From: Bolinopsis microptera
Taxonomy: Eukaryota > Ctenophora > Tentaculata > Lobata > Bolinopsidae
Length of the DNA stretch: 64,000 bases
Assembly (NCBI RefSeq): GCF_026151205.1
Contig: NC_087084.1
Span: forward strand, 7,613,394 to 7,677,393
Direction of reading: 5' to 3'
In this document: in pieces, positions 1,177-33,227 of the stretch
Position numbering within the stretch: position 1 is the stretch's first letter
How the letters are laid out: each line of letters starts with the position of its first letter
Made by a program: the position numbers and the translations under genes
The notes under the pieces: model-generated
The model's database searches: none
Told to the model about the DNA's origin: nothing
The model's input: the letters and a program-made list of their open reading frames with translations, nothing else

Positions 1177-4100
1177 AATAGATTAAGAAGAATACCCAAA
1201 GGCAGTAGCATGCTTTGGGTAGTTCTTTTTACTTATTATTAAGTTATTCTTATAGAATTAGCTGAGTTTATTGGAATTTTTGCAGTATCAGCTGTACTCG
1301 GCAAAGAAATTTCAATAAACTTCAAGCTAATTCAATAAGTAATAACTACCAACCTTACCCCGAAATACTAGGATCGACCCGAACGCAACCAACGTGATTT
1401 TTACTGCATCTGATGATGTAATCAATCGAAACTTATTAACGATTGTAGCCGTGAATGAATGGGGAAAAGGAGCGACCGATTTCATTCTCGTATCATTTGC
1501 ATTTGAGTAACGGTCAATCAAATTTTTATCATTTCTTTTGTTTGGGATGAGAGACACTGGCAGCGGTCCACTTCTACCCATTGTTTATGGGTTTTGGTCA
1601 AATATCATCGTTTTTGATTAATGTCTGCGGGTACTTTATAAAGTCGAAATATAAAATGATATCTTATGAATAAGGAGGAAGTTTTCAACGATTTTCGAAA
1701 TGTTTCCTTTGAGAAAACATTTCCTTGTGTTTGGGTAAGACATATCGGTCGATCACTGACTGCGAATTTGCCACTTTATACTCATTCATGTTGGCATTAA
1801 ATTTATATATATTGACTTTGACTGTCGGTGTAAAGCAGTGAATTTTGTTCGATATCACGATATGAGCAAAATTATCACCTTTCCGACTCGTGCAATACTA
1901 TGAGCCGGCCGTGCGATGCGCATCCAATATGAATCGCCGTAATTTCGCCGTGTTGGTTGTTTTTCTATATGGTTTGATAAGCATGACAAAGTTTCAAAGT
2001 ATTTCAGAAGACTTGTTTAATCACAACGGCACTCAACGTTTACAGAATATGGTAAAAACAGCATATTTTCAGTGATTTTAGCAATTTTTAATCAATTTGG
2101 GGCCGTGTCCCCAATGTGCAAACTTTTCGATAGTTCAACTTTAAAACTAGCCCTTATTCACAATTTATACCTATAGGAAGCAGAACTGAGCTCCAACAAC
2201 CCAAGGGATAGTTGAAAACACCAGAGAATACTAAATCGCAAAATGACGTTTTTATAAAATAATCTTTAAAAGCACAAACTTCAATGGCACAACAAATATC
2301 TTTATGAGGAGCAGGTAGGAGAAACTTTCCGGTTTCGGATTTCAGAATGCTTGAACTATTATCTAAGGTGAAAATGTCCTCAGTTTTTGAATAAAAAGTA
2401 CTCTTACTGGTGTAAACTCGTTTGAAAAGTTGTTTATTTGTCAAAAATCAAGTTTTAAAAGACACTTAATTTGATGCCGTCATCCAAGTGGTGATGATGA
2501 CGTTTAAATTTTTTTTCGATATAATTAAAATGATGTGTTAACAATTATCTTTAAGACCTTGTGGTCGGAAATTGCTGTATCTTTTATACTTTTGAATCTA
2601 CCGGACACTAAATTCAGGCTACATTGACTACATTTGACTGGCAAAGCGTATATCCTGGTATATCACAGTGCTGGCAAGCACGAGCGGTGTCTTTGTTGGG
2701 GTATCTAAGTTATCCCCTTTACTTTTGTACCCCTTTTATATTATACCCTTTACTAAATATAACCCTTTTGAACTGTCGGAAGCCTCTTTCAGTGAACGCG
2801 TAGCGTGCACTACGGCGAGGCGGCGGCCTTCGGCCCGCCGCCTCGGCTAGGATGTTTTTAGGCGTTAAGACTCATCGGAAGTCGTCAGCAGATTTTTTTT
2901 AGTTCAAAACATTCTAATTGTGTCGAAGATGACAGGATAAAAAATTAGTTTATGTTGGGGTTTTTAAGAAATTTAGCTAAAATACTCGCCAGCACTGTAT
3001 ACGAATTTCGGTAAAAACCCAAATTCGCCATATTAGGTGCCTTAAAACCATGTTAAATTGAGTTAGAGATCTGACATTTTTAGGGCGGTCTAGACGTTCT
3101 GACCAATTCGGGACTGCAAAAAAGTTTCAGGTTTAGGAGCATCGGAAATGGGTTTTCTAGAACCCTGTTTTTTCGTAGATTGTCGTGATATTTATTATAT
3201 ATTATATATTATTTGACCAAAAACCCATAACAGGGTAGAGTGGACCACTGCCAGTGTCTCTCTTTCCCAAACATAAAGATTGATATTATATTTGATTGAC
3301 GTTCTCAAATGCAAATTGATACCGGAGAATGAAATCGGTCGCTCGCTTTTCCCATTCATTTACAATTGTAATAGTTTAAGAAGAACTACCCAAAGGCAGC
3401 TAGTGCCTTTGGGTAGTTCTTCTTAATTATTATTAAGTTATTACATATTGAATTAGCTGATTTTTATTGAATTTCTTTGACCGAGTACCTGTAACTCGGC
3501 AAAAAATTCAAAAAATTCAGCTAATTCAATAAGTAATAAATTACCATACCTTACCGAAAATACTAGGTATCGACCGGAACGCAACCAAAGAGATTTTTAC
3601 AGAATCATGATTGATGGAATCAATCGAAAACTTATTACAATCGTTAGCCGTTTGAATGAATGAATATGGGAAAAAGGCGAAGGACGATTTCATTCTCAGG
3701 TATCATTTTGCATTTTGAGAACGGTCAATCAAATTATATCATTTCCTTTTGTTTGGGAAAGAGAGACAATGGCAGCGGGTCCACTCTACCATGATTATTG
3801 GGTTTTGGTCAAATATCATCGCTTTTTGATTAATGTCAGCGGTACTTTTATAAAGTCGAAATATAAATGATATCTTCATTATAAGGTGGAAGTTTCAACG
3901 ATTTTCGAAAATTTTTCCTTTGAAATCATTTCCTTGTGTTTGGGTAAGCATATCGTCGATCACTGACTGAATTTGCCACTTTTATTACTCATTCAGTGGC
4001 TTTAAATTTATATATAATGACCATTGAACCGTCGTGTATAGAAGAATTTGTTCGAAATCACGAATGAGCAAAATTATCACTTTTCGCACGGAGCAAACTA

Positions 4101-7100
4101 TGAGCGGACGTTGCGTGCGCATCCAATATTGAAAGCCGTAAATTTCGCGTGTTGGTGTTTTTATTGTTTGATAGCTGCAAAGTTGCAAAGTATTTCAAGT
4201 GAGAACTGAATCACAACGGCACACCACGTTTACAGAAAATGGTTAAAACAGCAATTTTCAGTGATTTTTAGCAATTTTTAATCAATTTGGGCGTTTCCCC
4301 ACGTGTTGCAACTTTATTTCAACTTTAAAACTAGCCTAATACACAATTTATACCTTTAGAAGCAGAATGAGCTCCACAACCCAAGGGATAGTGCAACACC
4401 AGAGAATACTAAAATCGCAAATTGACTGTTTTATAAATAATTCCTTCAAAATGCACAAACTTCAATGGCAAATATCTTTATGAAGGCAGCAAGGTTAGAG
4501 AACTTTCGGTAGATTAGTCTGAATGCTTGAACAATTATCTAAGGTGAAAGGTCCTAAGATTTGATAACATTACTCCTTAAGTGTTAAATCTGTTTGAAAA
4601 GTTTGTTATTTTGTCAAAAAATAAGTTTTAAATACACTTATTTGATGACGTCACAACGTGGTGATGATGACTTTAAAATTATTTTTCGATATAAGTAAAA
4701 CTGAAGGTAACAATTATCTTTAAAGACCTGTGGTCGATATTGCTGTATCTTTTATACTATGAGTCTCCGCGACACTTAATTCAGGCTACAATTGACTACA
4801 TTTGACTGGCAAAGCGTCTATCCCTGAATATCACAGTGCTGGGGGCAAGCACTGAGCGGTGTCTTTGTTGGGGGCTATACTATGTACTCCCTTACTATTG
4901 TACCCACCTGTAATATTATACCCTTTACTAATATACCCCTTTTGTACTCGTCGGAAGCTCTTTACGTGCACGCGAAGCGTGCATCCGGCGGAGGCGGCGG
5001 CCTTCGGGCCCGCCGCCTCCGCAGGAGTTTTTCAGGCGTAAGACACATCGGAAGTCGTATCAGCAGATTTATTTTTAGTTCAAAAAACATTCTATTTTGA
5101 TGTCGAAGATGACAGGAATAAATATAGTTATGTTGTTTTATAAGACAATATTGCATAAAAATACTCGCCAGCACTGTTATACGAATTCGGTTTAAAAAAC
5201 CCAAATTCGCCATATTCAGGTGCTTAAAACCATGTTAAAATTGTGTTAGAGATTGTCATTTGTTTCCAGGGTATAGACGTTGACCAATCGACTGCAAAAA
5301 AGTTTCAGTTTCAGGAGCATCGGGAAATGGGTTTTCTAGAACCCCTGTTTTACGATAGATTGTCGTGATATATATATATATTATATTTTGGACCAAATCC
5401 CTAATCATGGGTAGGTGACCTTGCAGTGTCTCTCTTTCCCAACAAACGAATGGATATTAATTTGTTTGACGTTCTCAAATGCAAAATGATACCGAGAATG
5501 GATATCTGTTCGCTCGCTTTTCCCATTCATTTCAATTGTAATAGATTTAGAGAACTACCCAGGCAGCTAGTGACTTGGGGTAGTTTTCTAATTATTATTA
5601 AGTTATTGCTTATTTGAATTAGCTGAAGTTTATTGAATTTTTTGCCGAGTACAGCTGTATCGGCAAAAAAATTCAATAAACTTCAGCTAATTCAATAAGT
5701 AAGTAATAACTACCAACCTTACCGAACTAGGTATCGACCCGAACGCACTAAGAGATTTTTTACAGTTCTGATTGATGTAATCAATCGATACTTTTTACAA
5801 TTCGTTAAGCCGTGAATGAATGGGAAAGCGAGCGACGATTTCATTCTCGTATTCATTTTGCATTTGAGAACGGTCAATCAAGGTAATATCATTTCCTTTT
5901 GTTTGGGGAAAGAGAGACACTGGCGCGGTATGTCACTCTACCCATGATTTATGGGTTTTGGTCAAATATCATCGCTTTTTGATTAATGTCAGGGGTACTT
6001 GATAAAGTCGAAATATAAACTGATTTTCTTCATTATAAAGGAGGAAGTTTCAACGATTTCGAAATTTTTCCTTTCCATTTGAAAACATTTCTTGGTGTTT
6101 GGGTAAGCATATCGGTCGATCACTGACTGAATTTGCACTTTATGACTTCATTCAAAGTTGGCATTTCTAAAATTTATATATAATGACATTGAACTGTCGT
6201 CGTGGTAAAGCAGATTTGTTCGAAATCACGAAGGAGCAAAATTATCACCTTTCGCACGTGCAAAATATGAGGCGGACGTTGCGTGGCATCCAATAATTGA
6301 TCGCGTAAATTTCGCGTGTTGGTGTTGTATTATATAGTCTGATAAGCATGCAAAGTTTCAAAAGTATTTCAAGAAGAAACTGTAATCACTATAACGGCAC
6401 ACCAACGTTTACAGGAAATATGGTTAATAAAAAAAACAGCAATTTTCTAGTGATTTTAGCATTTTTAATCAATTTGGGGCGTGTCCCACGTGTGCAAACT
6501 TTTCGATTTTCAACTTTAAAACTAGGGGGGGGGGGGCTAAGACTCCAATTTACTACTATAGGAAGCAGAACTGTGCTCCACACCAAGGGAACTAGTGCAA
6601 CACCAGAGAATTACTAAATCGCAAAATTGAAGTTTTTTTAAAATAATTCTACAAAAAAAGCACAAACTCTCAATGGCAAATACTTTATGAGGAGCAAGGT
6701 AGAGAAACTTTCCGGTTAGATTTTCTGAATGCTTGAACAATTATCTAAGGTGAAAATGTCCTTCTGATTTTGAATAAAATTACTCCTTAATGGTGTAGAA
6801 TCAGTTGAAAAGTTGTTATTTTGTCATAAATCCATGTTTAAAAACACTTAAATTTGATGGACGTCATCAAGTGGTGATTGTGACGTTAAATTATTTTTCG
6901 ATATATTAAAACTGAAGTGTAAACAATTATCTTAAGACCTGTGGTCGGAAAATTGCTGTATCTTTTATACTTTGAATCTCCGGACACTTAATTCAGGCTA
7001 CAATTTGACTAATTGCTGGCAATGCGTCTAGCCCTGATATCCACAGTGCTGGCAGCACGAGCGGTGTCTTGTTGGGTATACTTTGTACTCCCTTTACTAT

Positions 7101-9943
7101 TGTACCCCTTTAATATTATACCCCTTTACTAATATTAACCACTTTTGTACTCGTCGGAAGGCTCTTTCGTGCAAGCGAAGCGGTGCACTCCGGCCGGAGG
7201 CGGCCGGCCTTCGGCCGCCGCTCCGGCAGGAGTTTTTCAGGCGTTAAGATCTCTCGGAAGTCGTTCAGCAGATTTATTTTTAGTTTCAAAACATTCTAAT
7301 TTGATGTCGAAGATGACAGGAATAAAAATAGTTATGTTGGGGATTTTTAGAAATTTGAATAAATACTCGCCAGCCACTGTTATACGTTATTCGGTAAAAA
7401 AACCCAAAATCGCCATATCAGGTGCCTTAAAAAAACCATGGTTAACATTGAGTTAGTGATTGAATTTTCAGGGGTCTAGACGGTTGACAATCGACTGCAA
7501 AAAAAGTTTCAGGTTTCAGGAGGCTCGGGAAATGGGTTTTCTAAGAACCCTGTTTTACGATAGATTGTCGGGATTTTAAAACATATATATATATATATTA
7601 TTTGACAAAACCCATAATCATGTAGAGTGGACAACTGCGGTCTCTCTTTTTCCAAACAAAAGAAATGATTATTAATTTGATTGCCGTTCTCAATGCAAAA
7701 TGATCCGAGGAATTGAAATCGGTCGCTCGCTTTCCCATTCAATTTACAAATTGTAATAGATTAAAGAACTACCCAAGGCAGCTAGTTGAATTTGGGTAGT
7801 TTCTTCTTAATTATTATTAGTTATACTTATTGAATTAGCTGAAGTTATTGTATTTTTTGCCGAGTTCAGCTGTACTCGGCAAAAATTCAAAACTTCAGCT
7901 AATTTCATAAGTAATAACTACCAAAAAACCCTTACCCCGAAAATACTAGGTATCGACCGAACGCAACCCCAAGAAGATTTTTACTGCATCTGATTGATGT
8001 AATCACTCGAAACTTATTAAATTCGTAAGCCGTGGAATGAATGGGAAAAGCGAGCGCCCGATTTCATTCTCGGTATCATTTTGCATTTGAGATACGGGTC
8101 AATCAAATTAATATCTTTTCCTTTTGTTGGGAAAGAGAGACACTGGCAGCGTCCACTCTACCATGGTATGGGTTTTGGTCAAATATCATACGCTTTTTGA
8201 TTAATGTCAGCGGGGTACTTTATAAAGTCGAATTATAAAACTGATATCTTCATTAATAAGGAGGAGGGAAGTTTCAAGATTTCGAAATTTTTCCTTTGAA
8301 ACATTTCCTTGTGTTTGGGTAAGATATCGGTCGATCACTGACTGAATTTGGCACTTTATACTCTTTCAAGTTGGCATTAAATTTATTTTTAATGTCATTG
8401 AAATGTCGTGGTAAAGCAGATTTGTTAGAAATCGATGAGCAAAATTATACCTTTCGCACCGTGCAATACTTATGAGCGGACGTTGCGTGGCGCATCCATA
8501 TTGAATTCGCCGTTAAATTTTCGCGTGTTGGTGTTTTTTATATTGTTTGATAAGGCATGCAAAGTTTCAAGTATTTCAGAAGTAACTGTAATCACAACGG
8601 CACCAACGTTTACAGAAAAATGGTATAAAAACAGCATTTTTCTATGATTTAGCAATTTTTTTATCAATTTGGGCGTGTCCCAACGTGTGCAACTTTCGAT
8701 TTTCAACTTTAAAACTAGCCTAATACACAATTTTTACCTATAGGAAGGCAGAATGAGCTCCACTACCCAAGGGATAGTGCAACACCAGAGAATACTAATT
8801 CGCAAAATTGACGTTTTTTTAAAATAATTCTTCTAATAACAGCACAAACTTCAATGGCAAATGTCTTTATGAAGAGCAAGTAGAGAAACTTTCCGGTAGA
8901 TTTTCAGAATGCTTGAACAATTTATCTACAGGTTAAAAATGTCCCTCAGATTTGAATTTAATTACTCTAATGGTGTAAATATCAGTTTGGAAACAGTTGT
9001 TATTTTGTCAAAAATCAAGTTTTAAAAACACTTAATTTGATGTACGTCATCAGTGGTGATGATGATTTAAATTATTTTTCGATATTAATAAAACTGAAGT
9101 GTAAACAATTATCTTTAAGACCTGTGGTCGGGTAATGCCTGTATCTTTATACTTCGTTTGAATCTCCGGACACTTATTCAGGCTACAATTGACACTTTTG
9201 ACTGGCAAAGCGTCTATCCTGAATTTCACTGTGCTGGCAAGCTCGAGCGGTGTCTTTGTTGGGGGGTATACTATGTATCCCTTTACTATGTACCCCCTTT
9301 AATATTATAACCCTTTACTAATATAACCCCTTTTGTACTCGTCGGAAGCCTCTTTCGTGCACGCGAAGCGTGTGCAATCCGGCGGAGGCGGCGGCTTCGG
9401 CCCGGCCGCTCCGGCAGGAGTTTTTCAGGCGTTAAGACTCATCGGAAGTCGTTCAGCAGATTTATTTTTAGAATTCAAAACATTCTAATTTGATGTCGAA
9501 GATGACAGGAATAAAAAAATATTTATGTGGGATTTTTAAGAAATTTGCATAAATACTCGCTCAGCATGATTTTATACGAAAATTCGTAAAAAACCAATCG
9601 CCATATTCAGGTGCCTTAAAAAACCATGTTAAATTGAGTTAGAGATTGACATTTTTCAGGGGTTCTAGACGTTGACCACATCGACTGCAAAAAATGTTTC
9701 AGGTTTCAGGAGCATAGGGAAATGGGTTTTCTAGAACCCCTGTTTTACGATAGATTGTAGTGATTATATATATATATATATTATTTGACAAAAACCATAA
9801 TCATGGGTAGAGTGGAACCACTGCCAGTGTTCTCTTTCCCAACAAAGGAAATGATATTAATTTGGTTGCCGGTTCTCAATGCAAAATGATACGAGAATGA
9901 AATCGGTCGCTCGCTTTTCCCATCATTTACAATTGTAATAGAT

Positions 9944-9991
9944 TAAGAAAGAACTACCAAAGGCAGCTAGCTGCCTTTGGGTAGTACTTAT
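9944..9991. repeat. PAL1: ~48-bp near-perfect palindrome (one of 15)
   Basis: Arms of about 22 nt meet at a CTAG centre; the core CAAAGGCAGCTAGCTGCCTT is self-complementary. The same palindrome recurs once per unit, for example near 3375, 16620, 23231 and 32163, with copy-to-copy indels. The consensus across copies is a perfect inverted repeat with arms beginning AAGAAGAACTACCC and ending GGGTAGTTCTTCTT. It could form a cruciform or, if transcribed, a hairpin. The left edge of the whole array also falls at a PAL1 copy. Confidence 0.85.
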
Positions 9992-12900
9992 TAATTATCT
10001 ATTAAGTTATTACTTATTGAATTCAGCTGGGATGTTTATTGAATTGTTTTGCCGAGTACAGCTGAACTCGAGCAAAAAATTCAATAACTTCAGCTAATAC
10101 AATAAGTAATAAATAACCTACCTTACCCCGAAATACTAGGTATCGACCCGAACGCAACACAGAGATTGTTTACTCAGCATTCTGATTGATTGTTAATCAA
10201 TCGAAATATGTACAATTCGTAAGACCGTGAGGAGAATGGGAAGCGAGCGACCGATTTCATTTCGGTATCATTTTGCATTTGAGAACGGTTCAATCAAATT
10301 AATATCATTTCCTATTGTTTGGGAAAAGAGAGACACTGGCCAGCGGTCCACTTACCATGAATAGGTTTGGTCAAATATCATCGCTTTTTGATTTTGTCAG
10401 GCGGTACTTTTAATGTCGAATAATATTAAACTGATATCTTCATTATAAGGAGGAAGTTTCATCGATTTCGAAAATTTTTCCTTTGAAACATTCTTGTGAT
10501 TGGGTAAGCATATCGTCCGATCACTGACTTGAATTTGCCACTTTATTACTCATTTAGTTGGCATTTTAATTTTTATATAATGACATTGAACTGTCGTGGT
10601 AAGCGAATTTTGTTCGAAATCACGAATTGAGCAAAATTATCACCTTTCGCACGTGCAAACTATGAGCGGACGTTGCGTGGCATCCAATATTGAATCGCCG
10701 TAAATTTTCGCGTGTTGGCTGTTTTTTATATAGTTGATAAGCATGCAAGTTTCAAGTATTTCAGAAGAACTGTAATCACAACGGCACAACAACGTTTACA
10801 GAAATGTTAATTAAAATTAAACAGCAATGTCAGTGATTTTAGCAATTTTTAAATCAATTTGGGCGTGTCCCCACGTGTGCAAACTTTTCGATTTTTCAAA
10901 CTTTAAAACTAGCCTTAATACACAATTTATACTCATCTAGGAAGACAGAACTGAGCTACACAACCCAAGGGGATAGTGCAACACCAGAGAATAATAATCG
11001 CAAAATTGATGTTTTTATAAAATATTCTTCAAAAAGCACAAACTTCAATTGGCAAATATCATTATGAAGGAGCAAGGTAGAGAAACTTTCCGGTAGATTT
11101 TCATGAATGCTTGAACAATTATCTAAGGTGAAAATGTCTCAGATTTTGAATAAAATTATCTCTAATGGTGTAAAATCAGTTTGTAAAGTTGTTATTTTGT
11201 CAAAAATCAGTTTTAAAAACACTTTATTTGATGGACGTCAATCAAGTGGTCATGATGACGTTAAATTTTTTTTCGATTAATTTAAAACTGAAGTGTAACA
11301 ATTATCTTAGACCTGTTGGTCGGAAATTGCTGTATCTTTTTACTTTTGAATCTCGACACTTAAATTCAGGCTTTACAATTGACTTAAATTTGACGGGCAA
11401 AGCGTCTATCCCTGAATATACTAGTGCTGGCAAGCACGAGCGGTGTCTTTGTTGGGGGTATACTATGTACTCCCTTTACTATTGTAACCCTTTTAATTTT
11501 TATAACCTTTACTAATATAACCCCTTTTGTACTCGTCGGAGCCTCTTTCGTGCACGCGAAGCGTGCACTACGGCCGGAGGCGGCGCTTCGGCCGCCGCCT
11601 CCCGGAGGAGTTTTTTTCAGCGTTAAGACTCTTCGGATAGTCGTCAGCAGATTTAGTTTTTAGTTCTATACATTTAATTTGATGTCGAAAGATGGACAGG
11701 GAATATAAAAGGTTATGTTTTTCTTGGATTTTTAAGAAATGTGCATAAAAGAATATCGCCCAGCACTGTTATACGAAATCGGTAAAAAACCCAAATTCGC
11801 CATATTAGGTGCCTTAAATACACGTTAAAATTGAGTTAGAGATCTGACATTTTTTTCAGGGCGTCTAGACGTTGACCAAAATCGATGCAAAAAGAGTTTC
11901 ATGTTTCAGGTGCATCGGGAAATGGGTTTTTAGAACCCCTGTTGGTATTACGATAGATTGTGTGATATTTATAATTTATTTATATTATTTGACCAAAACC
12001 CATTAAATCATGAGTAGTGTGACCACTGCAGTGTCTCTCTTTCCAAACATAAAGGAAAAGATATTAATTTGAGTGACCGTTCTCAAATGCATAAGATACC
12101 GAGAATGAAATCGCGTCGCTCGCTTTTACCATTCATTTACAATTGTAATAGATTAAGAGAACTACCAAAGGCTGCTAGCTGCCTTTGGGAAGTTCTTCTT
12201 ATTTTTTTAAGTTATTACTTATTGAATTACCTGAAGTTATGAATTTTTTGCCGGGGTACAGCTGTATGGCAAAAAAATTCTATAAACTTCAGCTAATTCA
12301 ATAAGTAATTTACTACCAGCCTTACCCCCGAAATATAGGTATCGACCCGAACGCACCCAAGGAGTTTTTTACTGCATCTGATTGATGTAATCAATCGGAA
12401 ACTTATACAAATTCGTAAGCGTGAATGAATGGGAAAAGAGAGCTGACGATTTCATTCTCAGGTTATCAAATTTTGCATTGAGAACGGTCAATCAATTAAA
12501 ATTCATTTCTTTTTTGTTTGGGGAATGAGAGGCACTGCAGCCGGTCCACTCTACCATGATTATGGGTTTTGGTCAAATATCATCGCTTTTTGATTAATGT
12601 CAGCGGGTACTTTATAATGTAGAAATATAAACTGATTTCTTCATTAATTGGAGGAAGTTTCAACGATTTCGATATTTTTCCTTTTGAAAACATTTACTTG
12701 TGTTTGGGTATGCATATCGGTCGATCACTGACTGCAATTTGCCACTTTTACTCATCTAGTTGGCATTAATTTATATATAAGACATTGAACTGTCGTGGGT
12801 TTATAAGCAGAATTTGTTCGAAATCTCACGAAGAGCAAATTATCGCACCTTTTCGACGTGCAAACTATGAGCGGACGTTTGCGGTGCGGTCATCCAATAT

Positions 12901-15900: not shown

Positions 15901-16013
15901 ACGAGCGGTGTCTTTGGTGGGGGTATACTATGTACTCCTTTACTATTGTACCCCTTTAATTATTATACCCCTTTATAATATAACCCCTTTGTACTCGTCG
16001 GAAGCCTTCTTTC

Positions 16014-16072
16014 GTAGCACGCGAAGCGTGCACTCGGCGGAGGCGGCGGCTTCGGCCGCCGCCTCCGGCAGG
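16014..16072. repeat. GC-rich double hairpin (one of 14)
   Basis: A ~60-bp GC-rich island in otherwise AT-rich DNA. It holds two adjacent stem-loops: GCACGC-gaa-GCGTGC, then a longer one whose arms are GGAGGCGGCGGC and GCCGCCGCCTCC around a TTC loop. It follows a run of short CCCTTTACTA-type repeats. All array units have it, but the solitary copy at 60.6-62.6 kb lacks it at the matching place. The form recalls the GC clusters and double-hairpin elements known from organelle genomes of some fungi and green algae. That is only a similarity of form; no organelle gene is present. Confidence 0.85.
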
Positions 16073-17879
16073 ATGTTTTTCAGGCGTTAAGACTCATCGG
16101 AAGTCGTGCAGCAGATTTATTTTTAGTTCATAACATTTAATTTGGATGTCGAAGATGACAGGAATAAAAAATAGTTATGTTGGGATATTTAAGAAATTTG
16201 CATAAATACTCGCCAGCACTGTATACGAAATTCGGTAAAAAAACCCAAAATCTGCCCATATTTCAGGTATTGCCTTAAATAACCATGTTTTTAAATTGGT
16301 GTTAGAGATACTGCATTTTCAGGCGTCTAGACGTTGACCAAAACGGACTAGCGCAAAATAAAAGTTTCAGGTTTAGGAGCATCGGGAATTGGTTTTATAG
16401 AACCCTGTTTTACGATAGATTGTCGTGATATATATATATATTTTATATTTGACAAAACCCATAATCATGGGGTTAGAGGTGGGACCACTGCCAGTGTCTC
16501 TCTTCCCAAACAAAAGGAAATGATTATTAATTTGATTGAATAACGGTCTCAAATGCAAAATGATACGAGAATGAAATCGGTCGCTCGCTTGTTTCCATTC
16601 ATTTACAATTGTAATAGATAAGAAGAACTACCCAAAGGCAGCTAGCTGCTTTGGGTAGGTTTTCTTAATTTTTATTAAGTAATTTACTTATTGAATTGTG
16701 AAGTTTATTGATATTGTTTGACGAGTACAGCTGTCTCGGGCAAATAATTCAATAAATTCAGCTACTCAATAAGTATTACTACAACCTTACCCCGAAATAC
16801 TGGTATCGACGAACGCAACCCCAAGAGATTTTTTACGGCATTGATTGATGTAAATCAATCGAAAGTATTACAATTCGTAAGCCGTGAATGAAGGGAAAAG
16901 CGAGCGACGATTTTCATTTCTCGGGTTCATTTTGCATTTGGAGAACGGTCAAGCAAATTTAATATCATTTCTTTTGTTTGGGAAAGAGACATGGCAGCGG
17001 TCCACTCTACCATGATAAGGTTTTGGTCAAAATATCATCGCTTTTTGATTAATGTCAGCGGTACTTATAAAGTCGGAAATATAAAACTGATATCTTCTTT
17101 AATAAGGAGGTAGGTTTTCAACGATTTCGAAATTTTTCCTGTGAACATTTCCTTGTGTTTGGGTAAGCATACGGTCGATTCTCTGACTGAATTTGCCACT
17201 TTATAATATTCAGTTGGCATTTAAATTATATTTAATGTCATTGAACTGTCGTAGGTAAAGCAGAATTTGTTCGAAATCACGATTGTGCAAAATTTAGCAC
17301 TTTCGCACGTGAAACTATGAGCGGACGTTTGCGTGCGCATCCATAATGATCGCCGTAAATTCTTCGCGTGTTGGTTGTTTTATATATTGTTTGATAAGCA
17401 TGCAAAGTTTCAAAGTATGTTCAAGAAGAATGTAATCACACGGCCACCAACGTTTACAGAAAATGGTAAAAACAGCAATTTTCAGTGTTTTAGCATTTTT
17501 TAATCTATTTGCGTGTCCCCACGTGTGCAACTTTTCGATTTCAACGTTTAAACTGCCTAATACCTATTTATACCTATAGGAAGCAGAACTGAGCTCCAAA
17601 ACCCAAGGGATAGTGCAACACAGAGAATACTAAATCGCAAAATTGGACCGTTTTTATAAAATTATTCTTCAAAAAGCACAATACTGCAATGGCAACTAGT
17701 CTTTATGAAGGAGCAAGGTTAGAGAAACTTTCGTTAGATATTTTTCTGGATAATTCTTGAAACAATTATCTAGGTGATAATGTCTCAGATATTTGAATTA
17801 ATTTATACTCCTTAAGGTGTAAATTCAGTTGAAAAGTTGTTATTTTGTCCAAATAATCAAGTTTTAAAACACTTAATTT

Positions 17880-17916
17880 ATTTGATGACGTCATCAAGTG
17901 GTGATGATGACGGTAA
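17880..17916. promoter_or_regulatory. CRE-like palindrome TGATGACGTCATCA plus a second half-site
   Basis: Each unit carries a TGACGTCA palindrome followed some 20 bp later by TGATGATGACGTTA. TGACGTCA is the known full binding site of CREB/ATF bZIP factors in animals. The clean copy in the solitary element lies at 61936-61951. An E-box-like CACGTG sits elsewhere in the unit, within 'tgtccccacgtgtgc'. Whether the satellite is transcribed cannot be judged from sequence. Confidence 0.4.
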
Positions 17917-20900: not shown

Positions 20901-23900
20901 AATGATATTAATTTGACTTGACGTTCTAGAAATGCCAAAATGATACGAGAATGAAATCGGTCGCTTCGCTTTCCCATTCATTTACAATTGTAATAGATAA
21001 GAAGAAACTCCCAAAAGGCGCTAGCCTGCTTTGGGTAGTTCTTCTTTAATTATTATTAAGTTTTACTTATTGAAATTAGCTGAGTTATTGAATTTTTTTG
21101 CCGAGTACAGCTGTACTCGGCAAAAAATTCATTAAACTTCAGCTAATTCAATAAGTAATAACTACCAACCTTTACCCCGAAATACTAGTATCGACCGAAC
21201 GCAACCCAAAGAGATTTTTACAGCATCTGATTTGATGTAATCAATCGAAACTTGTTACAATCGTAAGCGTGAATGAATGGGAAAAAGCGAGCGACGATTT
21301 CATTCTCGGTTTTCAGTTTGCATTTGAGAACGTCAATAAATTATAATTTCCCAAATTTTTTTTTTTTTTTTTTGTTCCTTTTGTTTGTGGAAAGAGAGAC
21401 CACTGGCAGCGGTCACTCTACCCATTGATTATGGGTTTGGTCAAATATCATCGATTTTGGATTAATGTCAGCGGGGGTCTTTATAAAGTCGAATTATAAA
21501 CTGATAATCTTCATTAATAAGGAGGGAAGTTTCAACGATTTGAAATTTTTCCTTTGAAAACATTTCCTTGTGTTTGGGTAAGATATCGGTCGATCACTGA
21601 TGAATTTGCCACTGATATACCCATTCAAGTTGGCATTAAATTTATATATAATGACATTGAACTGTCGTGGTAAAGCAGAATTTGTTCGAAATCACGATGA
21701 GCAAAATTATCACCTTTCGACGTTGCAACTCATGAGCGGAAGTGGCGTGCGCATCAATATTGAATCGCCGTAAATTTTCGCGTGTTGTGTTTTATATATA
21801 GTTTGATAGCCATGCAAAGTTTCAAAGTATTTTAGAAGAACTGTAATCACAACGGCACCCAACGTTTACAGAAAATGGTATATTTAAAATCAGCAAATTT
21901 TCAGTGATTTTAGCAATTTTTAAATCAATTTGGCGCGTTGTCCCCACGTGTGCAACTTTCGATTTTAACTTTAAACTAGCCCCTAATACACAATTTATAC
22001 CTATAAGGAAGCAGATACTGAGCTCCACAACCAAGGTTAGTGCAACACAGAGAATTTAAATCGCAAAATTGACGTTTTTATAAAATATTTCTTCAAAAAG
22101 CACAAACTTCATTGGCAAATATCTTTATGTTGGATGAAGGTAGAGAACACTTTCCGGTAGATTTTCAGAATGCTTGAACCAATATCTATAGGTGAAAATG
22201 TCCTCTGATTTTGAATAAAATTACTCCTTAATGAAAATTTCGTGTAAAATCGTTTGAAAAGTTGTTATTTTGTCAAAATCAAACGTTTTAAAAACAATTA
22301 TTTGATGACGTCATCAAGTGGTGATGATGACGTTAAATTATTTTTCGATATAATTAAAACTGAGTGTAAACAATTATCTTTAAGACTGTGGTCGGAATAT
22401 TGCTGTATCTTTTATACTTTTGAATCTCCGGACACTTAAATCAGGCTACTATTGACTACCATTTGACTGGCAAAGCGTCTATCTGAATCACAGTGCTGGG
22501 GGGCTGGGTGGGGGGGGATGGCAAGCACGAGCGGGTCTTTGTTGGGTTACTATGTACTCCCTTACTATTGTTACCCCCTTTAATATATATACCCCTTACT
22601 AATATACCCTTTTGTACTCGTCGGAAAGCTATTTCGTGCACGCGAAGCGTGCACTCCGGCCGAGGCGGCGGCCTTACGGCCGCCGGCCTTTTCGGCAGGA
22701 GTTTTTCAGGCGTTAAGACTCATCGGAAGTCGGCTCAGCAGATTTATTTTTAGTTCAAAACATTTAATATGTTGTTCGAAGATGGGACAGGTATAAAAAA
22801 TAGTTATGTTGGGATTTTTAGAAATTTTCGCTAAAATACTCGCCAGCATGTTATACGAAATTCGGTAAAAAACCAAAATCGCATCCATATTCAGTGCCTT
22901 AAAACCATGTTAATATTGAGTTAGAGATCTGACCATTTTTCAGGGCGTTCTAGACGTTGACTAAATCGACTGCAAAACAAAAGTTTCTTGGTTTCAGGAG
23001 CATCGGACAATGGGTTTCTAGAACCCCTGTTTTACGATAGTTTGTCGTGATTATATATTTATATTATTATTTGACCAACACCATAATCATGGGTAGAGTG
23101 GACACTGCCAGTGTCTCTCTTTCCCAATCAAAAGGAAATGATATTATTGATGACCCGTTCTCAAATGCAAAATGATACCGGAATGAAATCGGTTCGCGCG
23201 GCTGTTTCCTTATTTACAATTGTAATAGATTAAGATGAACTACCCAAAGGCAGCTAGTGCCTTTGGGTAGTTCTTCTTAATTTTTATTAGTTATTACTTA
23301 TTGAATTAGCTGAAGTTTATTGATTTTTTGCCGAGTACAGCTGTACTACGGCATAAATAATTCAATAAACTTAAGCTAAATTCAATAAGAATAACTACCA
23401 ACCTTACCCGAAATACTAGGTATCGACCCGATACAGAACCCAAGGAGATTTTTACAGCATCTGATTTGATGTAATCAATCGAAACTTATTCATTCGTAAG
23501 CGTGAATGAATCGGGGGAAAAGCGAAGCGACCGATTTCATTCTCGTGTATCATTTGCATTGAGAACGGTCAATCAAATTAATATCATTTCTTTTGTGTTT
23601 GGGAAAGAGAGACCACTGCAGCGGTCCATATACCCATGATTATGGGTTGATTGGTCAAATATCCTCGCTTTTGATTGAATGTTCAGCGGGTACTTTATTT
23701 CTTCGATAAAGTCGAAATATAAAACTGTATCTTCTTTAATAAGAGGAAGTTTCTACGATTTCTCGAAAATTTTATTCCTTTGAAAAAACATTTCCTTGTG
23801 TTTGGGTAAGGCATATCGGTCGATACTGACTGATTTGCCACTTTATACTCATTCAAGTTGGCATTAAATTTATAAATAATGACATGGAACTGTCGTGGTA

Positions 23901-25530
23901 AAGCAGAATTTGTTCGAAATCACGAATGGCACAAAAATTATCCACCTTTCGCACGTGAAACTATGGCGGACGTTGCGTGCGATCCATATGAATCGCGTAA
24001 ATTTTCGGTGTTGGTGTTTTTTATATATAGTTTGATAAGCCATGCAAGTTTTCAAAGTATTTTCGAGAGAACTGTAATCAACAACGCACACCAACGTGTA
24101 CCAGAAATGGTTAAAACAGCAATTTTCAGTGATTTTAGAAATTTTTAAAATCATTCTGGCGTGTCCCCACGTGTGCACTTTCGATTTTCAACTTTAAAAC
24201 TAGCCTAATTTTTAAACACAAAATTTATACCTTTAGGAAGCAGAACTGAGCTCCACAACCCAAGGGATAGTGCAACACCAGAGAATACTAAATCGAAAAT
24301 GACGTTTTTTAATAATCTTCAAAAAGCACAAAACTTCAATGGCAATATCTTATGAAGGAGCAAGGTAGAGAAAACTGTCCGTAGATTTTCAGGAATGCTT
24401 GGAACAATTATCTAAGGTGAAAATGTTCTCAGATTTTGAATAAAATTACTCCTTAATGGTGTAAAATCAGTTTTGAAAAGTTGTTATCTTTGTCAAAATC
24501 AAGTTTTAAAAACACTAATTGATGACGTCATATAGTGGTGTTGTTGTCGTTTAATTTTTTTTTCGGATTAATTAAACTGAAGTGTAAACAATTAATCTTT
24601 TAGTCATGTGGTCGGAATTTGCTGTATCTTTTATACTTTTGAATCTCCTGACACTAAATTCTAGGATAAATTGACTACATTTGACTGGCCAAAGCGTCTA
24701 TCCCTGAATATCACAGTGCTGGCAGAAGCACGAGCGGTGTCTTTGTTGGGGGTATACTATGTTACTCCCTTTACTATTGTACCCCCTTTAATATTATACC
24801 CTTTACTATATAACCCTTTTGTAATCGTCGGAAGCCTCTCTTTCGTGCACGCGAAGCGTGCACTCGGCCGGAGGCGGCGGTTCGGCCGCCGCTCCGGCAG
24901 GTAGTTTTTAGGCGTTAAGACTCATCGGAAGTCGGTTCAGCAGATTTATTTTAGTCAAACATTCTAATTTGATTTCGAAGATGACAGGAATATAAAAAAT
25001 AGTTATGTTGGGATTTTTAAGAAATTTTGCATAAAATTTCTCGCCGCAGACCACTGTTATACGAAAATTCGGTAAATAACCAAAATCGCCATAGGTCAAG
25101 TGCTTAAAAACCATGTTTTAAAATTGAGGCGTTAGTGCTCTGACTTTTTTTCAGGGCGTCTAGACGTTGACCATCGACTGCAAAAATAGTTCAGTTTCAG
25201 AGCATCGGGGAAATGGGTTTTCTTGAACCCCTGGTTTTACGATAGATTGTCGGATACTATATATAGATATATATTATTGACCAAACCCATAATCATGGTA
25301 GAGTGGAACACCTGCAGTGTCTCGCTCTTTCCAAACAAATAGGAAATGATATTAATTTGATGACCGTTCTCACATGCAAAAATGATACTCGAGAATTGAA
25401 ATCGGTCTTGCTCGCTTTTCCCATTCATGGTAAAAATTGTTAATTAGATGGTAAGAAGAACTACCAAAAGGCGCAGCTGCCTATTGGTAGTTTCTTCTAA
25501 TTATTATTATGTTTTTACTTATTGATTTTA

Positions 25531-25596
25531 GCTGAAGTTTATTGAATTTTTTGCCGAGTACAGCTGTACTCGGCAAAAAATTCAATAAACTTCAGC
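25531..25596. repeat. PAL2: perfect 66-bp core of a ~100-bp palindrome (one of 15)
   Basis: Positions 25531-25596 are exactly self-complementary around the centre GTACAGCTGTAC. Across copies the palindrome extends outward through GAATTAGC and TTATTACTTATT on one side and their complements on the other, for about 100 bp in total. Other copies lie near 1260, 3440, 5610, 7820, 10010, 12215, 14440, 16680, 18870, 21060, 23300, 27720, 30005 and 32225. Perfect palindromes this long are unstable in most genomes, so keeping one in every unit suggests active homogenisation or a role for the structure. Confidence 0.9.
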
Positions 25597-28500
25597 TATT
25601 CAATATGTAATTAGAAGTACCAGACCTTTACCGCCCGTAAATACTAGGTTTTCGACCGAACGCAAACCCAGAAGGATTTTTACAGCATCTGATTGATGTA
25701 TGTAATCAATCGAATATTATTACAATCGTAAGCCGTGAATGAATGGGAAAAGCGAGCGGTACGATTTTCCTTTCTCGGTTTATCATTTTGCATTGAGAAA
25801 GGTCAATTAAATTAATATATTTCCTTTTGTTTGGGAAGAGAGACACTGGCAGCGGTCCACTTCATGATTATGGGTTTTGGTCAATTATCATCGCTTTTTG
25901 ATTAATGTCAGCGGGTACTTTATAAAGTCGAAATATAAACTGATGGCTTCATTATTAAGGAGGAAGTTTCATCGATTTCGAAATTTTTCCTTGAAAACAT
26001 TTCTTGGTGTTTGGGTAAGCATATCGGGTCGATCACTGACTGAATTTGCCACTTTATATCATTCAAGTTGGCAGTAAATTTTGTATATAATGACATTGAT
26101 GTCGTGGTAAAGCAGAATTTGTTCTGAAATCACGAATGAGACTAAATTGTCACTTTCGCAGTGCAAACTATGAGCGGGTACGTTGCGTGCGCATCCAATT
26201 TTGAATCGCGCTAAATTTTCGCGTGTGGTGTTTTATATATACGTTTGATAAGCATGCAAAGTTTCAAAGTTTTTTCAAGAAGAACTGTAATCACAACGGA
26301 CACCAACGTTTACAGAAATGGTTATTTTAAACAGAATTTTCAGTGATTTTATCAATTTTTATCAATTGGGCGTGTCCCCAGATGTGCAACTTTTCGATTT
26401 TCAACTTTAAAACTTAGCCTAATACACAATTTATACTATAGGAAGCAGAACTGAGCTCCACAACACAAGGGATAGTGCAACACCAGAGAATACAAAATTC
26501 GCCAAAATTGACGTTTTTATAATATTAATTCTTCAAAAAGCACAAACTTCAATGCAAATATCTTTATGAAGGAGCATGTAGAGGAAACTTTCCGGTAGTT
26601 GATTTTCAGGAATGCTTGATCAATTATCTAAGGTGAAAATGTCCTCTGATTTTGAATTAAACTTACTCCTTGTAGAAGGGTGTAAATTCAGTTTGAAAAA
26701 GTTGGTATTTTGTCAAAAATCAAGTTTTAATAAAACTTATTTGGATGACGTCATCAATGGGATGATGACGTTAAATTATTTTTCGATAAATTAAAACTGA
26801 GTGTAACACAATTATCTTTAAGACCTGTGGTCGGACAATTGCTTGTAATCTTTATACTTTTGGAATCTCCGGACACTTAAATTCCCAGGGGCTTTTTATT
26901 TACAATTGACTACATTTGATGGCCAAAGGTTATCCCTGAATAATAACAGTGCTGGCAAAGCACGAGCGTGTCTATGTTGGGGGTATATATGTACTCCTTT
27001 ACTATTGTACCCCCTTTTATATTATACCTTACTAATATAACCATTTTGTACTAGTCGGATGCCTCTTTCGTGCACGCGAAGCGTGCACTCCGGCCGGAGG
27101 CGGGCGGCCTTCGGCCGCCGCCTCGGCTGGGTTTTTCAGGCGTTAAGATCATCGGAAGTCGTTCAGCAGATTTATTTATTGTTCAAAACATTCTAATTGA
27201 TGTCGAAGATGACAGGAATAAAAAATTGTTATGTTGGGTTTTTTAAGAAATTTGCATAAAATATCGCCTGCATGTTATACGAATATTCGGTAAAAAACCC
27301 AAAATCGCCATATTCAGGTGCCTTAAAAACTGTTAAAATTGAGTTAGAGATCTGACTTTTTTCAGGGCGTCTAGACGTTGACCAATCGACTGCAAAAAAA
27401 GTTTCAGGGTTTCAGGAGCATCGTGGAAATGAGGTTTCTAGAAACCTGTTTTACGATCTAGATTGTCGTGATGATATATATTATATATTATTTGACCAAA
27501 ACCATAAGTCTTGGGTTAGAGTGGACACTGCAGTGTCTCTCTTTCCCAAACAAAAGGAAATGATATTATTTTGATTGACCGTTCTCAAATGCAGTAAATA
27601 TGATACGAGAAATGAAAATCGGTCGCTCGTGTTCCCATTCATTTACTCAATTGTAATAGTTAAGAAGAACTACCAAAGGCAGCTAAGCTGCTTTGGGTAT
27701 TCTTCTTAATTATTATTAAGTTTTTACTATTGAATTAGCTGAATGGTTTATTGTAATTTTTGCCGATACAGCATTATCTCGGCAAAAAATTCAAAAACTT
27801 CAGCTAATTCAATAAGTAATAATCTACCAACCTTTCCCCGAAATACTAGGTATCGACCCTGAACCGAACGCTCTGAAACACGCTTCGCAAAGAGATTTTT
27901 ACAGCATTGATTGATGTAATCAATCGAAGCTATTACAATTTCGTAAGCGTGAATGAATGGGAAAAGCGAGCGACGATTTCATCTCGGTATCATTTGCTTT
28001 TGAGGAACGGTCAATCAAATTAATAATCATTTCCTTTTGTTTGGGAAAAGAGGACACTGGCAGCGGTCCACTCTACCCATGATTTTGGGTTATGGTCAGA
28101 AATTATCATCGCTTTTTGATTAATGTCAGGGGTACGGCGCTTTTTTGATAAAGGCGAGATTTACTAAGATATCTTGTTTATCTTCTTTACTTATAGAGAT
28201 TGGAAGATGTTTTCAGAACGAGTTTGTCTGCGATATATATTTTGTTCCTTTGTAGAGATTGATCGCAAGTTTTCCTTGTGTTTGGGGTAGCTATCGTCGA
28301 TACTGACTGAATTTGCCACTTTTTACTCATCAAGTTTGCATTAAATTTATTTATAATGACATTGAACTGTCGTGGTAAAGCAGAATTTGTTCGAAAATCA
28401 CGAAATGTGCAAAATTATAACCTTTCGCACGTGCTAACTATGAGCGGGACGTTGCGTGCCGCACCAATATGACTCGCCGTAAATTTTCGCGTGTGTTGTG

Positions 28501-31500
28501 TTTTATATAATAGTTTGTTAGCATGGCAAAGTTTCAAGTATTTCAAGAAGTACTGTATACAACGGCACACCACGTTTACAAGAAAATGGTTAATAAATAT
28601 AGAAAAACAGCAATTTTCAGTGATTTTAGCAATTTTTAATCAATTTGGCGTGTCCCCACGTGTGCAAGCTTTTCGATTTTCAACTTTTATAAATTGCCTA
28701 AAACAACAATTTTATACCTATAGGAAGCAGAAGACTGCGCTCCACGCAATACCAAGGGTTAGTTGCAACTCATGAGACATACTAAATCGCAAATTTGTCG
28801 TTTTTATTAGAAAATAATTCTCATGAGAAAAGCACAAACTTCTATGGCTCAAATATCTTTATGAAGGAGCAAGTAGAGAAAAACTTCGCGGTTTAGATTT
28901 TCAGGAATGCTTGATACATTATTCTAAGTGAAAAGGTCATAAGGATTTTGAATAAAATTAGCTCACTTAATGGTGTAAAATCAGTTTGAAAAGTTGTGTA
29001 TTTTGTCAAAAAATCAAGTTTTATAAACACTTATTGATGACGTCATCTCAAGTGGTGATGAAGAACGTTCAATTATTTTTCGATATAATTAATACTGAGT
29101 GTAAACAATTTTCTTTAAGACCTGTGGTCGGAAATTGCTGTATCTTTTATACTTTTGAATCTATCGCGGACACTTAAATTCAGGTACAAATTGACTGTAC
29201 ATGTGACACTGGCAGAAGCGTTATCCTGAATATCACGCGTGCTGCAAGCAACGGCGGTGTCTTAGTTGGGGTATATATTTACTCCCTTTACTATTGTACC
29301 CTCTTTTAATAGTATTCCCTTTACTAATATAACCCCTTTTGTATGTCGGATAGCCTATTTCGTGCACGGAGCGTGCACTCGGCGGAGGCGGCGGACATCG
29401 GCCGCCGCCCTCCGGCAGGAGTTTTTCAGGCGTTAAGACTCTTCGGAGTCGTTCTGCAGATTGATTTTAGTTCTACATTCTAATTTGATGTCGAAGTGAC
29501 AGGAATAAAAATTGTTATGTTGGGATTTTTAAGAAATTTGCATAAAATACTCGCGCCAGCATGTTTACGAAATTCGGTAAATACCAAAATCGCCATATAC
29601 AGGTGCCTTAAAAACCATGTTAAAATTGAGTAGAGATTGACATTTTTTCAGGGGTCTAGAGTTGACCAAATCGACTTGCCAAAAAAAGTTTCAGGTTTCA
29701 GAGCCATCGGGAAATGGGTTTTCTAGAACCCGGTTTTACGATAGATTGTCGTGATATATATTTATTATATATATTATTTGACCAAACCCATAATCATGGG
29801 TAGTGTGGACCACTGCAGTGTCTCTCTTTCCCAAACAAATGGAAATGATATTAATTTGATGTCCTGTTTAATGCAAATGATTACGAGAATTGAAATCGGT
29901 CGCTCGCTTTTCCCATTCATTTACAATTGTAAAAGAAAAAAATAGATTTAAAGAAAGAACTAACCAAAGCAGTAGCTGCCTTTGGGTAGTTCTCTTAATT
30001 ATTATTAAGTTCTTACTATTGAATTAGCTGATGTTTATTGAATTTTTTGCGAGTAACAGCGCTGTTCTCGGCAAAAAATTCAATAAACTTCAGGCTAATT
30101 CAATATGCTAATAACTACCAACCTTACCCCGGAAATATATGTTATCGACCCTCGAACGAACCCAAGAGATTTTTACTTGCATTCTGATTGATGTAATCAA
30201 TCGAAACTTATTACAATTCGTAAGCGTTGAAATGAATGGGAAAAGCGAGCGACCGATTTCATTCTCGGTATCATTTTGCATTTGAGAACGGTCAACAAAT
30301 TTAATTAGTCGTTCTTATTGTTTGGGAAAGAGGAGACAATGGGCTGGGTCCACTATACCCATGATTATAGGGTTTAGGTCAAAATATCATCGCTTTTTGA
30401 TTAATGTCAGGCGGGTACTTTGTATAGTCGAAATATAAAAATGTTATCTTCATTTAATAAGGAGAAGTTTCAACGATTCGATATTTTTCCTTTGATATAA
30501 CATTTCCTTGTGTTTGGGTTAGAATATCGGTCGATCTTGACTGAATTTGCACGTTATTCTCATTCAAGTTGGCATTAAATTTATATATAATGTCATTGAA
30601 CTGTCGTGTAAAGCAGAATTTGTTCGAAATCCTCGATGAGCAAATTATCACCTTTCGCGCTGCAAACTATGGCGGACGTTGCGTGCGCATCCAATATTGA
30701 ATCGCCGTAAATTTTCGCGCGTGTATGGTGTTTTATATATAGTTTGATATGCATGCAAAGTTTAAAGTATTTCAAGAGATAACTGTAATCACAACGGGAC
30801 CCAACGTTTTACAGAAAAAATGGTTAATACAGCAATTTTCAGTGATTTTAGCATTTTTAATCAATTTGGGCGTGTCCCCACGTGTGCAACTTTTCGATTT
30901 TCAACTTTAAAAACTAGCCTAATACACAATTTAATACCTATGGGAAGCAGAAACTGAGCTCCACAACCCAAGGGTTAGGCAACACTGAGAATACTAAATC
31001 GCTAAATTGACGTTTTTATTAAATATAATTCTTCAAAGCACAACTATCAATGGCATAATTTCTTTATGAAGGAGCAAGGTAGAGAACTTTCCGGTAGATT
31101 TTCAGAATGCTTGAAACAATTATCTGAGGTGAAATGTCTCAGATTTGATAAAAATTACTCCTTAATGGTTGTAAAATTCAGTTTGAAAAGTTGTTATTTT
31201 GTCAAAATCAAGTTTTAAAAACACTTATTTGTTGACGTATCAAGTGGTGTATGATGACGTTAATTATTTTTTCGATATAATTTAAACTGAAGTGTAAACA
31301 ATTTTCTTTATGAACGTGGTCGGAAATTGCCTGTATCTGTTTATACTTTTGAATATCCGGAACCTAAATTCTGGCTACAATTGACTATCTTTGACTGGCA
31401 AGCTCAATCCCTGTAATATCACCGTGCTGGCAAGCAACGAGCGGTGTGTTTTGTTGGGGGTATACTTATGTACTCCCTTTATATTGTACCCCTTTAATAT

Positions 31501-33227
31501 TATACCCCTTAAGATACTAATATAAACCCTTTTGTACTCGTCGGAAGCCTCTTTCGTGCTCGCGAAGCGTGCCTCCGGCGAGAGGGCGGGGCCTTCGGCC
31601 GCCGCTCCGGCAGGTGTTTTTCGGGCGTTAAGGACTCATCGGAAGTCGACTTTTTCAGCCAGTTTTTTTTTAGTTTAAAATACATCTAATTTGATGTCGA
31701 GATGCAGGAATTAAAAATAGTTTATGTTGGGATTTTTAAGAAATTTGCATAAAATACTCGCCAGCACTGTTATAGAAATTCGGTAAAAAACCCATATCGC
31801 CATATTCAGGTGCCTTTAAAAAACCATGTTTAAAATTGGTTAGAGATCTGACATTTTTCAGGGCGTATAGACGTTGACCAAAATCGCTGCAAAAAAAGTT
31901 TCAGGTTCAGGAGCATAGGGTGGAAATGGTTTCCTAGAACCCTGTTTTTTAACGATAGATTGTCGTGTTATATTTTATATATATATTTTATTTGACCTAA
32001 AAAACCCATAATCCTTGGGCTTAGAGTGGACACTGTTGCCGTGTCTTCTCTTTCCCAAACAAAAGGAATGTTATTAATTTGATTGACCGTTCTCAAAGAA
32101 TTGATACCGAGAATGAAATCGGTCGCTCGCTTTTCCCATTCATTTACAATTGTAATAGATTAAGAAAGAACTACCAAAGGCAGCTAGCTGCCTTTGGGTA
32201 GTTTCTTCTTAATTATTATTAAGTTATTACTTTATTGAATTAGCTGAAGTATATGTATTTTTTGCCGGTACAGCTGTACTCGGCAAAAATTCAATAAACT
32301 TCAGCTAATTCAATAAGTAATAACTAACAAACCTTACCCGATATAATAGGTTCGACCCCCAGAACGCAACCCCAAAGAGATTTTTTCTAGGTCATCTGAT
32401 TGATGTAATACAAATCGAAACTTATTACAATCGTAAGCCGTGAATGAATGGGAATAGCGAGCGACCGATTTCATTCTCGGTATCATTTGCATTTGAGAAC
32501 GGTAATCAAATTAATATCAGTTCCTTTTGTTTGGGAAGAGAGACACTGGCCGCGGTCACTCTACCCATGGATTATGGGTTTTGGTCAAATATCATCGCTT
32601 TTTGATTTAATGTAAGGCGGGTACTTTATAAAGTCGAAATATAAACTGATATCTTCATTAATAAGGAGGAAGTTTCAAACGTTTTCGAAAATTTTTCATT
32701 GTAACATTTCCTTGTGTATTGGGTAAGCATATCGGTCGATCATGACTGATTTTGCCACTTTATACTCATTCAAGTTGGCATTAAATTTTATATAATGACA
32801 TTGAACTGGTGTGGTAAAGCAGATTTTTGTTCGAAATCAAGGAATGAGCAATATAATCACCTTTCGCACGTGGAACTATGAGCGGACGTTGCGTGCGCAT
32901 CCAATTTTGAATCGCCGTTAATTTTCGCGTGTTGGTGTTTTATATATAGTTTGATATGCTTGCAAGTTTCAAAGTTTTTCAAGGACGAACTGTAATTACA
33001 ACGGCCACAACCATCGTTTACAGAAAATGGTTATAACAACAGAGCAATGTTTCGGTTTTTAAGCAATTTTTTTTTAATCAATTTGGGCGTGTCCCACGTG
33101 TGCAACTTTTCGATTTTCAACTTTAAAACTTAGGCCCTAATACACAATTTATAACTATAGGATGCAGAACTGAGCTCCACTAACCAAGGGATAGTGCTAC
33201 ACCAGAGATACTAAATCGCAAAATGAA

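Follow-up and report, generated by a model that had tools for sequence, protein, structure and literature searches.

Helitrons transpose via circular intermediates, and arrays of these elements have been ascribed to lost terminators (PMC12628747; PMC5148889); Helitron-derived satellites, tandem or centromeric Helitron arrays and composite monomers derived from transposable elements are known or have been proposed (PMC12628747), among them the arrays in plants that this review cites from Xiong et al. 2016. How a satellite originated from a transposable element mostly has to be deduced when its parental arrangement no longer exists. The window analyzed here, the whole stretch of 64,000 nucleotides from the ctenophore Bolinopsis microptera (assembly GCF_026151205.1, contig NC_087084.1, positions 7,613,394 to 7,677,393 of the forward strand), carries a tandem array that is very probably a young satellite derived from nested non-autonomous Helitrons, its unit corresponding to a 2186-bp segment of the type present in a Helitron nest on another contig. 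The assembly (232 contigs with a total of 265 Mb, of which 13 are chromosome-sized; the labels C1, C10, C11 and C13 are used for contigs, with the array on C13 and the putative parent nest on C1) holds the presumed single-copy parent, independent nests of a similar kind without recurring array junctions, and the amplified array.

Origin of the repeat unit

The array is arranged head-to-tail at positions 1187-33222 (+) of the window and comprises 14 full units and one partial unit, which bears out the ~2.2-kb tandem repeat described in the initial annotation of the window; its period is ~2.2 kb, the unit measures ~2.19 kb and the majority consensus 2174 bp. In each unit, the end palindrome and core of a Helitron termed Z are linked with the 5' end region of a second Helitron, termed Y. 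At C1:12770194-12780169 the order of components is as follows: core of a third Helitron, X (+), inverted 5' end of Y, TA run, complete Z (+), 186 bp, and the core (-) and arms of Y. In this nest, Y is inserted in inverted orientation in X, and Z is inserted in the TA run of Y, in the orientation of X. Two direct copies of the core block CTATCCCTGAATAT, one belonging to X and one to Z, are spaced 2186 bp apart with the 5' end of Y between them; as this spacing matches the unit, the latter would have been made by exchange between X and Z. The array consensus differs from the 2186-bp C1 segment by 13 substitutions (99.4% identity). Its Y part is 98.7% identical to the Y of C1, with one mismatch in 538 columns, whereas no other copy compared exceeds 90%, and its core is 98.5% identical to Z versus 88% to X.

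In a stretch of ~30 bp that immediately precedes the Y junction and is common to X and Z, exchange would give rise to the first tandem copy or, as an alternative outcome, to an excised 2.19-kb circle. At least 14 copies would then result from unequal crossing-over or, in the case of the circle, from its rolling-circle replication and reinsertion. The exchange block is thereby narrowed to ~30 bp, and the model predicts the unit length. The core/Y junction pattern has 27 matches in the genome, and its recurrence at multiples of the unit is confined to C13:7.618-7.638 Mb. Ten other junction loci were partly read, two of them with the order X>Y>Z and four with X>Y; X>Y>Z nests are located at C10:3520368 and C11:4768795. 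Self-insertion into TA runs recurs across this Helitron family. A flipped 5' region as the sole cause of the core/Y junction was ruled out, the opposite core being found after the Y 5' end at four loci (L077, L078, L079, L083).

Several points weigh against the derivation from the C1 nest or against a Helitron origin as such. Nest and array are situated on different contigs, so that one has to postulate transfer, misplacement or a lost seed on C13. The array has about five fixed substitutions that the C1 copy lacks, and the 3' end of the family is not of the CTRR type. The core/Y junction is carried by ~22 other loci, only ten of which were read, in part; short Y pieces at some junction loci are 98.7-99% identical to the Y of C1, and a closer parent than C1 could be present at another of these loci. 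The amplification step, finally, is one that we infer.

Anatomy of the unit

The full units start at positions 1187, 3380, 5549, 7763, 9948, 12156, 14379, 16622, 18815, 21001, 23234, 25455, 27664 and 29954; the partial unit, from 32165, covers consensus positions 1-1043. Taking unit 2 as an example, the outer arm entering the unit (3213-3379, -) is the 3' terminus of Z (...ACCCATGATTATGGGTTTTGGTCAAA/T in Helitron orientation); adjacent are a 54-bp palindrome (3376-3422; ATTAAGAAGAACTACCCAAAGGCAGCT/AGCTGCCTTTGGGTAGTTCTTCTTAAT in the clean copy), a 106-bp perfect palindrome centred on GTACAGCTGTAC (3435-3540, a span that is approximate in this noisy unit) and the inner arm (3659-3815, +), an inverted copy of the Helitron 3' end. 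The core of Z (3816-4831, -), a non-coding deletion derivative, terminates at the X/Z exchange block CTATCCCTGAATAT and includes a cAMP-response-element-like (CRE-like) site, TGACGTCA (4647-4654), which is also found in dispersed Helitron copies. The array-specific junction of the core and the Y 5' end, CTATCCCTGAATATCACAGTGCTGG (4818-4842, +), has letters identical to those of the X/Y junction on C1. The Y 5' end region (4832-5367, +), inverted with respect to Z, contains the 5'-TCACAGTGCTGGCAAGCAC hairpin, ~16-bp CCCCTTTACTATT repeats and GC hairpins, among the latter the GC-rich GGCGGCGGCC-TTC-GGCCGCCGCC (4985-5024), and is followed by the TA run of Y (5368-5386), the insertion site of Z (A/T target).

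The structural elements named in the initial annotation are all present, partly with corrected dimensions: its ~48-bp palindrome is actually 54 bp long and perfect in the clean C1 copy, its ~100-bp palindrome is 106 bp long and perfect in both the consensus and the C1 homologue, its 150-bp inverted arms measure ~155 bp (~95% identical in the array consensus, 99% in clean copies), and the GC-rich double hairpin and the CRE-like TGATGACGTCATCA are seen in the consensus and in the C1 homologue. Perfect palindromes of 54 and 106 bp far exceed chance. That all 15 copies keep their palindromes, as had been stated, holds for the consensus and not for the assembled letters of single units, the self-complementarity of which amounts to 61-81% for the 54-bp and 64-79% for the 106-bp palindrome.

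The Helitron family and its autonomous partner

When up to two mismatches are allowed, the genome contains 1417 forward and 1406 reverse matches to the 24-bp palindromic end TGACCAAAACCCATAATCATGGGT (its reversed control has none at the same threshold); at two arms per element, this corresponds to a family of roughly 1,400 elements, a count in which diverged copies are missed and some copies are one-armed. Complete dispersed copies are ~2.0 kb long, 98-99% identical, distributed over many chromosomes and sharply delimited (A/TTTGACC...TTGTGA/T). A single dispersed copy is present in the window itself (60584-62584, -); it matches the array consensus at 97.9% identity across 1195 bp, and its centre is inverted. 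The flanks of six copies were joined and searched against the genome, and uninterrupted empty sites were found for three of them: the joined flanks of the copy at 60584-62584 correspond to empty sites over 262/262 bp at 100% identity at several loci, without duplication or loss, and two further copies have contiguous empty sites at 94-95%. Insertion occurs between A and T without target-site duplication, i.e. it is of the Helitron type; in one autonomous copy, the base flanking the 5' end is other than A.

The 5' end of the element consists of TCACARTG and a hairpin (TCACAATG / TCACAGTG), the 5' TC being present. At the 3' end, a variable centre is enclosed by the two inverted arms of ~155 bp, and the palindrome closes in a hairpin (ACCCATGATTATGGGT, then ~11 nt to the end) and GGTCAAA/T; in the C11 copies GGTAAAA takes the place of GGTCAAA, and a CTRR 3' end is not present. 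Both ends bear terminal hairpins (5' GTGCT..AGCAC, 3' ACCCAT..ATGGGT). The stem of the 5' hairpin displays a compensatory change, GTGCT..AGCAC in the array and autonomous copies versus ATGCT..AGCAT in dispersed ones (window 4833-4850; L005). A ~9-bp candidate for an asymmetric terminal inverted repeat (GACCGTTGC versus GACCGCTGC) was spotted by eye only.

Helitron_like_N has 41 matches in the genome. At C11:3832000-3854499 the two ends of the element flank a ~7-kb insert (9.4 kb end to end), and the 1759-aa open reading frame (ORF) between them comprises Helitron_like_N, REP_ORF2-G2P, PIF1 and Pif1_2B as well as a PHAH (HUH) motif; no endonuclease family was found in the Pfam scan of this ORF. 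The C11 element is the autonomous Rep (HUH)-PIF1 helicase partner, and the dispersed ~2.0-kb copies are internal deletion derivatives of such a Rep/helicase Helitron. At C11:3832000-3851999 (L065/L066), autonomous copies and a neighbouring receptor-gene fragment are repeated at 10-12 kb steps; the repeats are 99.96% identical over 8.2 kb, and a third Rep match is located at C11:3856595. Another Helitron family with PF14214 (L068, L069) does not fully share the ends described here, and only a fragment of the element was found near L069.

Palindrome arms and centres

Across 22 elements, an arm variant was shared by the two arms of its carrier in 83 cases and limited to a single arm in 12; of the variants private to one element, eight were found in both of its arms and nine in just one. 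Mean arm identity is 98.4% within a copy versus 94.8% between copies. The centre between the arms is found in both orientations among dispersed copies, and the loop of the GC hairpin reads TTC in the array seed versus GAA in the other copies read. In the dispersed elements, the arms are rewritten from each other and the centres flip; hairpin or inverted-repeat recombination, or template switching, might be the mechanism. One may speculate, with the reservation that the proposal is improbable as it stands, that the long 3' palindrome has a function of its own in these Helitrons: a 3' signal pointing both ways, one on each arm, would let Rep stop or cut in either orientation, hairpin processing in the course of rolling-circle replication would rewrite the arms and flip the centre, and the elements would thus be prone to mutual insertion into TA runs and to satellite arrays.

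Sequence quality and placement on C13

Single units are 85-91.5% identical to the consensus. Their mean deviation from the clean C1 homologue comprises mismatches (3.35%), insertions (4.4%) and deletions (3.2%); among 818 distinct substitution variants, 688 are confined to one unit, and only ~5 are common to most units. In view of this predominance of singletons and of the 99.4% identity to the C1 segment, the apparent inter-unit divergence of 10-15% is raw long-read error and not evolution; ancient real divergence among the units was ruled out on the same grounds. The array sits within an error-rich stretch, the flanks of which have duplicates 40-80 kb away. The left flank (1-1170, +) is an 86% duplicate of C13:7687835-7688957; the error-rich right flank (33223-34700, +) is a duplicate of C13:7566069-7567600, with an identity of 83-87% from C13:7566069 onward that switches abruptly to 99%. 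A noisy copy of the window from 47.9 to 55.9 kb is located at C13:7604127-7612244. Window positions 33223-55921 and 1-1170 correspond to C13:7566069-7612244 and 7687835-7688957, respectively; this 42-48 kb duplication is either a real tandem duplication holding the array or a haplotype or gap-fill artefact.

The published assembly of B. microptera consists of 13 chromosome-scale scaffolds and was produced by wtdbg long-read assembly, TGS-Gapcloser filling and Illumina/pilon polishing (PMC10232365). The array stretch looks like unpolished gap fill with duplicated flanks, and because of its errors and these flanks the C13 location and the copy number of the array are provisional. Real reads may have been wrongly placed or multiplied by gap filling, in which case the array would belong on C1 (in one haplotype) or be shorter and the C13 site would be an artefact; we regard this as a serious possibility, albeit with a probability of clearly less than one half. 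It is in accordance with the raw-read error in array and flanks, with the order of the flank duplicates, which demands the 42-48 kb duplication, with the likely source assembly and its gap filling (PMC10232365), and with the location of the parental arrangement on C1. However, the right-hand junction between the array and unique C13 sequence lies within raw-like letters, as would result from a junction-spanning read, and a genuine tandem duplication of the region holding the array would look no different. Long-read chimaeras are, furthermore, mostly inverted and not 14-fold head-to-tail. The assembly artefact considered in the initial annotation is therefore a justified concern with regard to the unpolished letters and the doubtful placement, whereas the unit itself is real.

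Amplification and persistence of the palindromes

The Helitron machinery itself might have amplified the unit: Rep-driven rolling-circle replication past a terminator would yield a concatemer that is inserted, as has been proposed for plant tandem Helitrons. This route, which is compatible with the nested origin, is tentative and in our estimate somewhat doubtful. The different locations of nest (C1) and array (C13) and the use of circular intermediates by Helitrons make amplification through a circle attractive; Helitron arrays have been ascribed to terminator loss (PMC12628747; PMC5148889), an intact Rep/helicase partner is present, the 2.19-kb X/Z circle would hold a Helitron 5' end, and the separate contigs of seed and array are consistent with a mobile circle. 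In contrast, the unit boundary coincides with the X/Z homology block and not with a Helitron 5' or 3' end, the multiple 5' and single 3' ends of that model are not shown by the array, and ordinary homologous exchange is enough to account for the unit.

Selection on the satellite, as a centromere, origin or amplification element, is a very unlikely reason for the preservation of the palindromes. The initial annotation had considered a selected replication, centromere-like or amplification function, and the long perfect palindromes of the consensus, the position of the array near the middle of a 16.35-Mb contig and the concerted evolution of the arms would suit it; but the same end palindrome is found in autonomous Helitrons as well as in ~1,400 dispersed copies, the array junctions recur at one place on one contig, and the youth of the array accounts for the conservation. 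No evidence of a centromere role was obtained. Arrays on most chromosomes, as for a centromeric satellite, were not found in the assembly, in which collapsed arrays are possible: the palindromic ends occur genome-wide, as a search of other scaffolds revealed, whereas recurring array-type junctions are restricted to the one place on C13. Constant homogenization, the other explanation that had been offered, agrees with the low real divergence between units; a continuous process within the satellite is, however, unneeded, as recent amplification suffices, and homogenization was seen at another level, namely from arm to arm of a palindrome in individual dispersed elements. If the array is a young derivative of nested Helitrons, its palindromes would serve the transposon (replication termination, strand transfer) and not the satellite, and they would persist in the array owing to its recent amplification and to conversion between the arms.

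A foldback element or a cut-and-paste miniature inverted-repeat transposable element with long terminal inverted repeats, which the arm-centre-arm structures of 323-588 bp resemble, is a highly improbable source of the unit in place of a Helitron: both arms lie at one end of a longer element with TCACARTG at its other end, the empty sites lack a target-site duplication and the partner encodes Rep/helicase (the reading was dropped after the flank had proved one-sided and this partner had been found).

Other features of the window and the genome

A second dispersed repeat family (35741-37998; copies 91-97% identical, on most contigs) contains an internal 307-bp tandem duplication (36609-37201). 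A 9-bp minisatellite, (TAATGTACT)n, extends over ~112 copies (50844-51852) with several frames open. On the minus strand, an intact receptor-like ORF of 1148 aa (52053-55499) shows by eye low-density-lipoprotein-receptor-like cysteine repeats and a seven-helix part, as well as a 336-bp internal tandem duplication (54531-55204); the frame of its upstream duplicate (L063) is broken by noise. Long intronless frames were also observed for TRPM-like (1386 aa) and iGluR-like (917-949 aa) genes (L009, L045, L050); a glutamate-receptor chain of the ctenophore Mnemiopsis (ML032222a) ranks high against one of the iGluRs of this genome, in line with the ctenophore source and not with Nematostella.

Comparison with known systems

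With the Helitron arrays and satellites reviewed in PMC12628747, the C13 array shares a monomer made of Helitron parts that possibly arose via circle replication or unequal exchange, and composite monomers have been proposed there as well; it differs in that its unit has the 5' end of one Helitron opposite a second and in that the single-copy parental nest survives. DINE-1/HINE, the non-autonomous Helentron elements (PMC4067079), and the oyster Helentron satellites (PMC7492417, PMC8268682) offer a further parallel: there, too, satellites arise from rolling-circle elements that are non-autonomous and abundant, contain short tandem repeats internally and bear hairpins at their termini. Unlike in Helentron/DINE-1, the partner identified here is devoid of an endonuclease domain in the Pfam scan, the target is A/T and not TT in the copies examined, and the whole composite is the unit instead of an internal short repeat.

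The canonical Helitron (Helitron1) resembles the B. microptera family in the 5' TC, the A/T target, the missing duplication and the 3' hairpin ~11 nt from the end, but the 3' end is GGTCAAA (or GGTAAAA) here and not CTRR. Common to Helitron2 (FoHeli, PMC5148889) and the present family are Rep-PIF1 without endonuclease, hairpins near both ends, 5' TCA... and an AT-rich target, and self-insertion in opposite orientation has been described for the former. FoHeli possesses 12-bp asymmetric inverted repeats, in contrast to the 3' palindrome with ~155-bp arms, the co-evolving arms and the flipping centre observed here, where asymmetric repeats are only a candidate feature. On the basis of these sequence features the family resembles Helitron2 more closely than Helitron1 or Helentron; because CTRR is absent and the asymmetric terminal repeats are only a candidate, it is classified as Helitron without subgroup. 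No description of this family in ctenophores was found in the literature searched, which barely mentions ctenophore Helitrons. Three features are new in comparison with the known systems: a single-copy parent that still exists and from which the unit can be predicted, the ctenophore lineage itself, and its unusually long, recombinationally active 3' palindrome with ~155-bp arms that evolve in concert.

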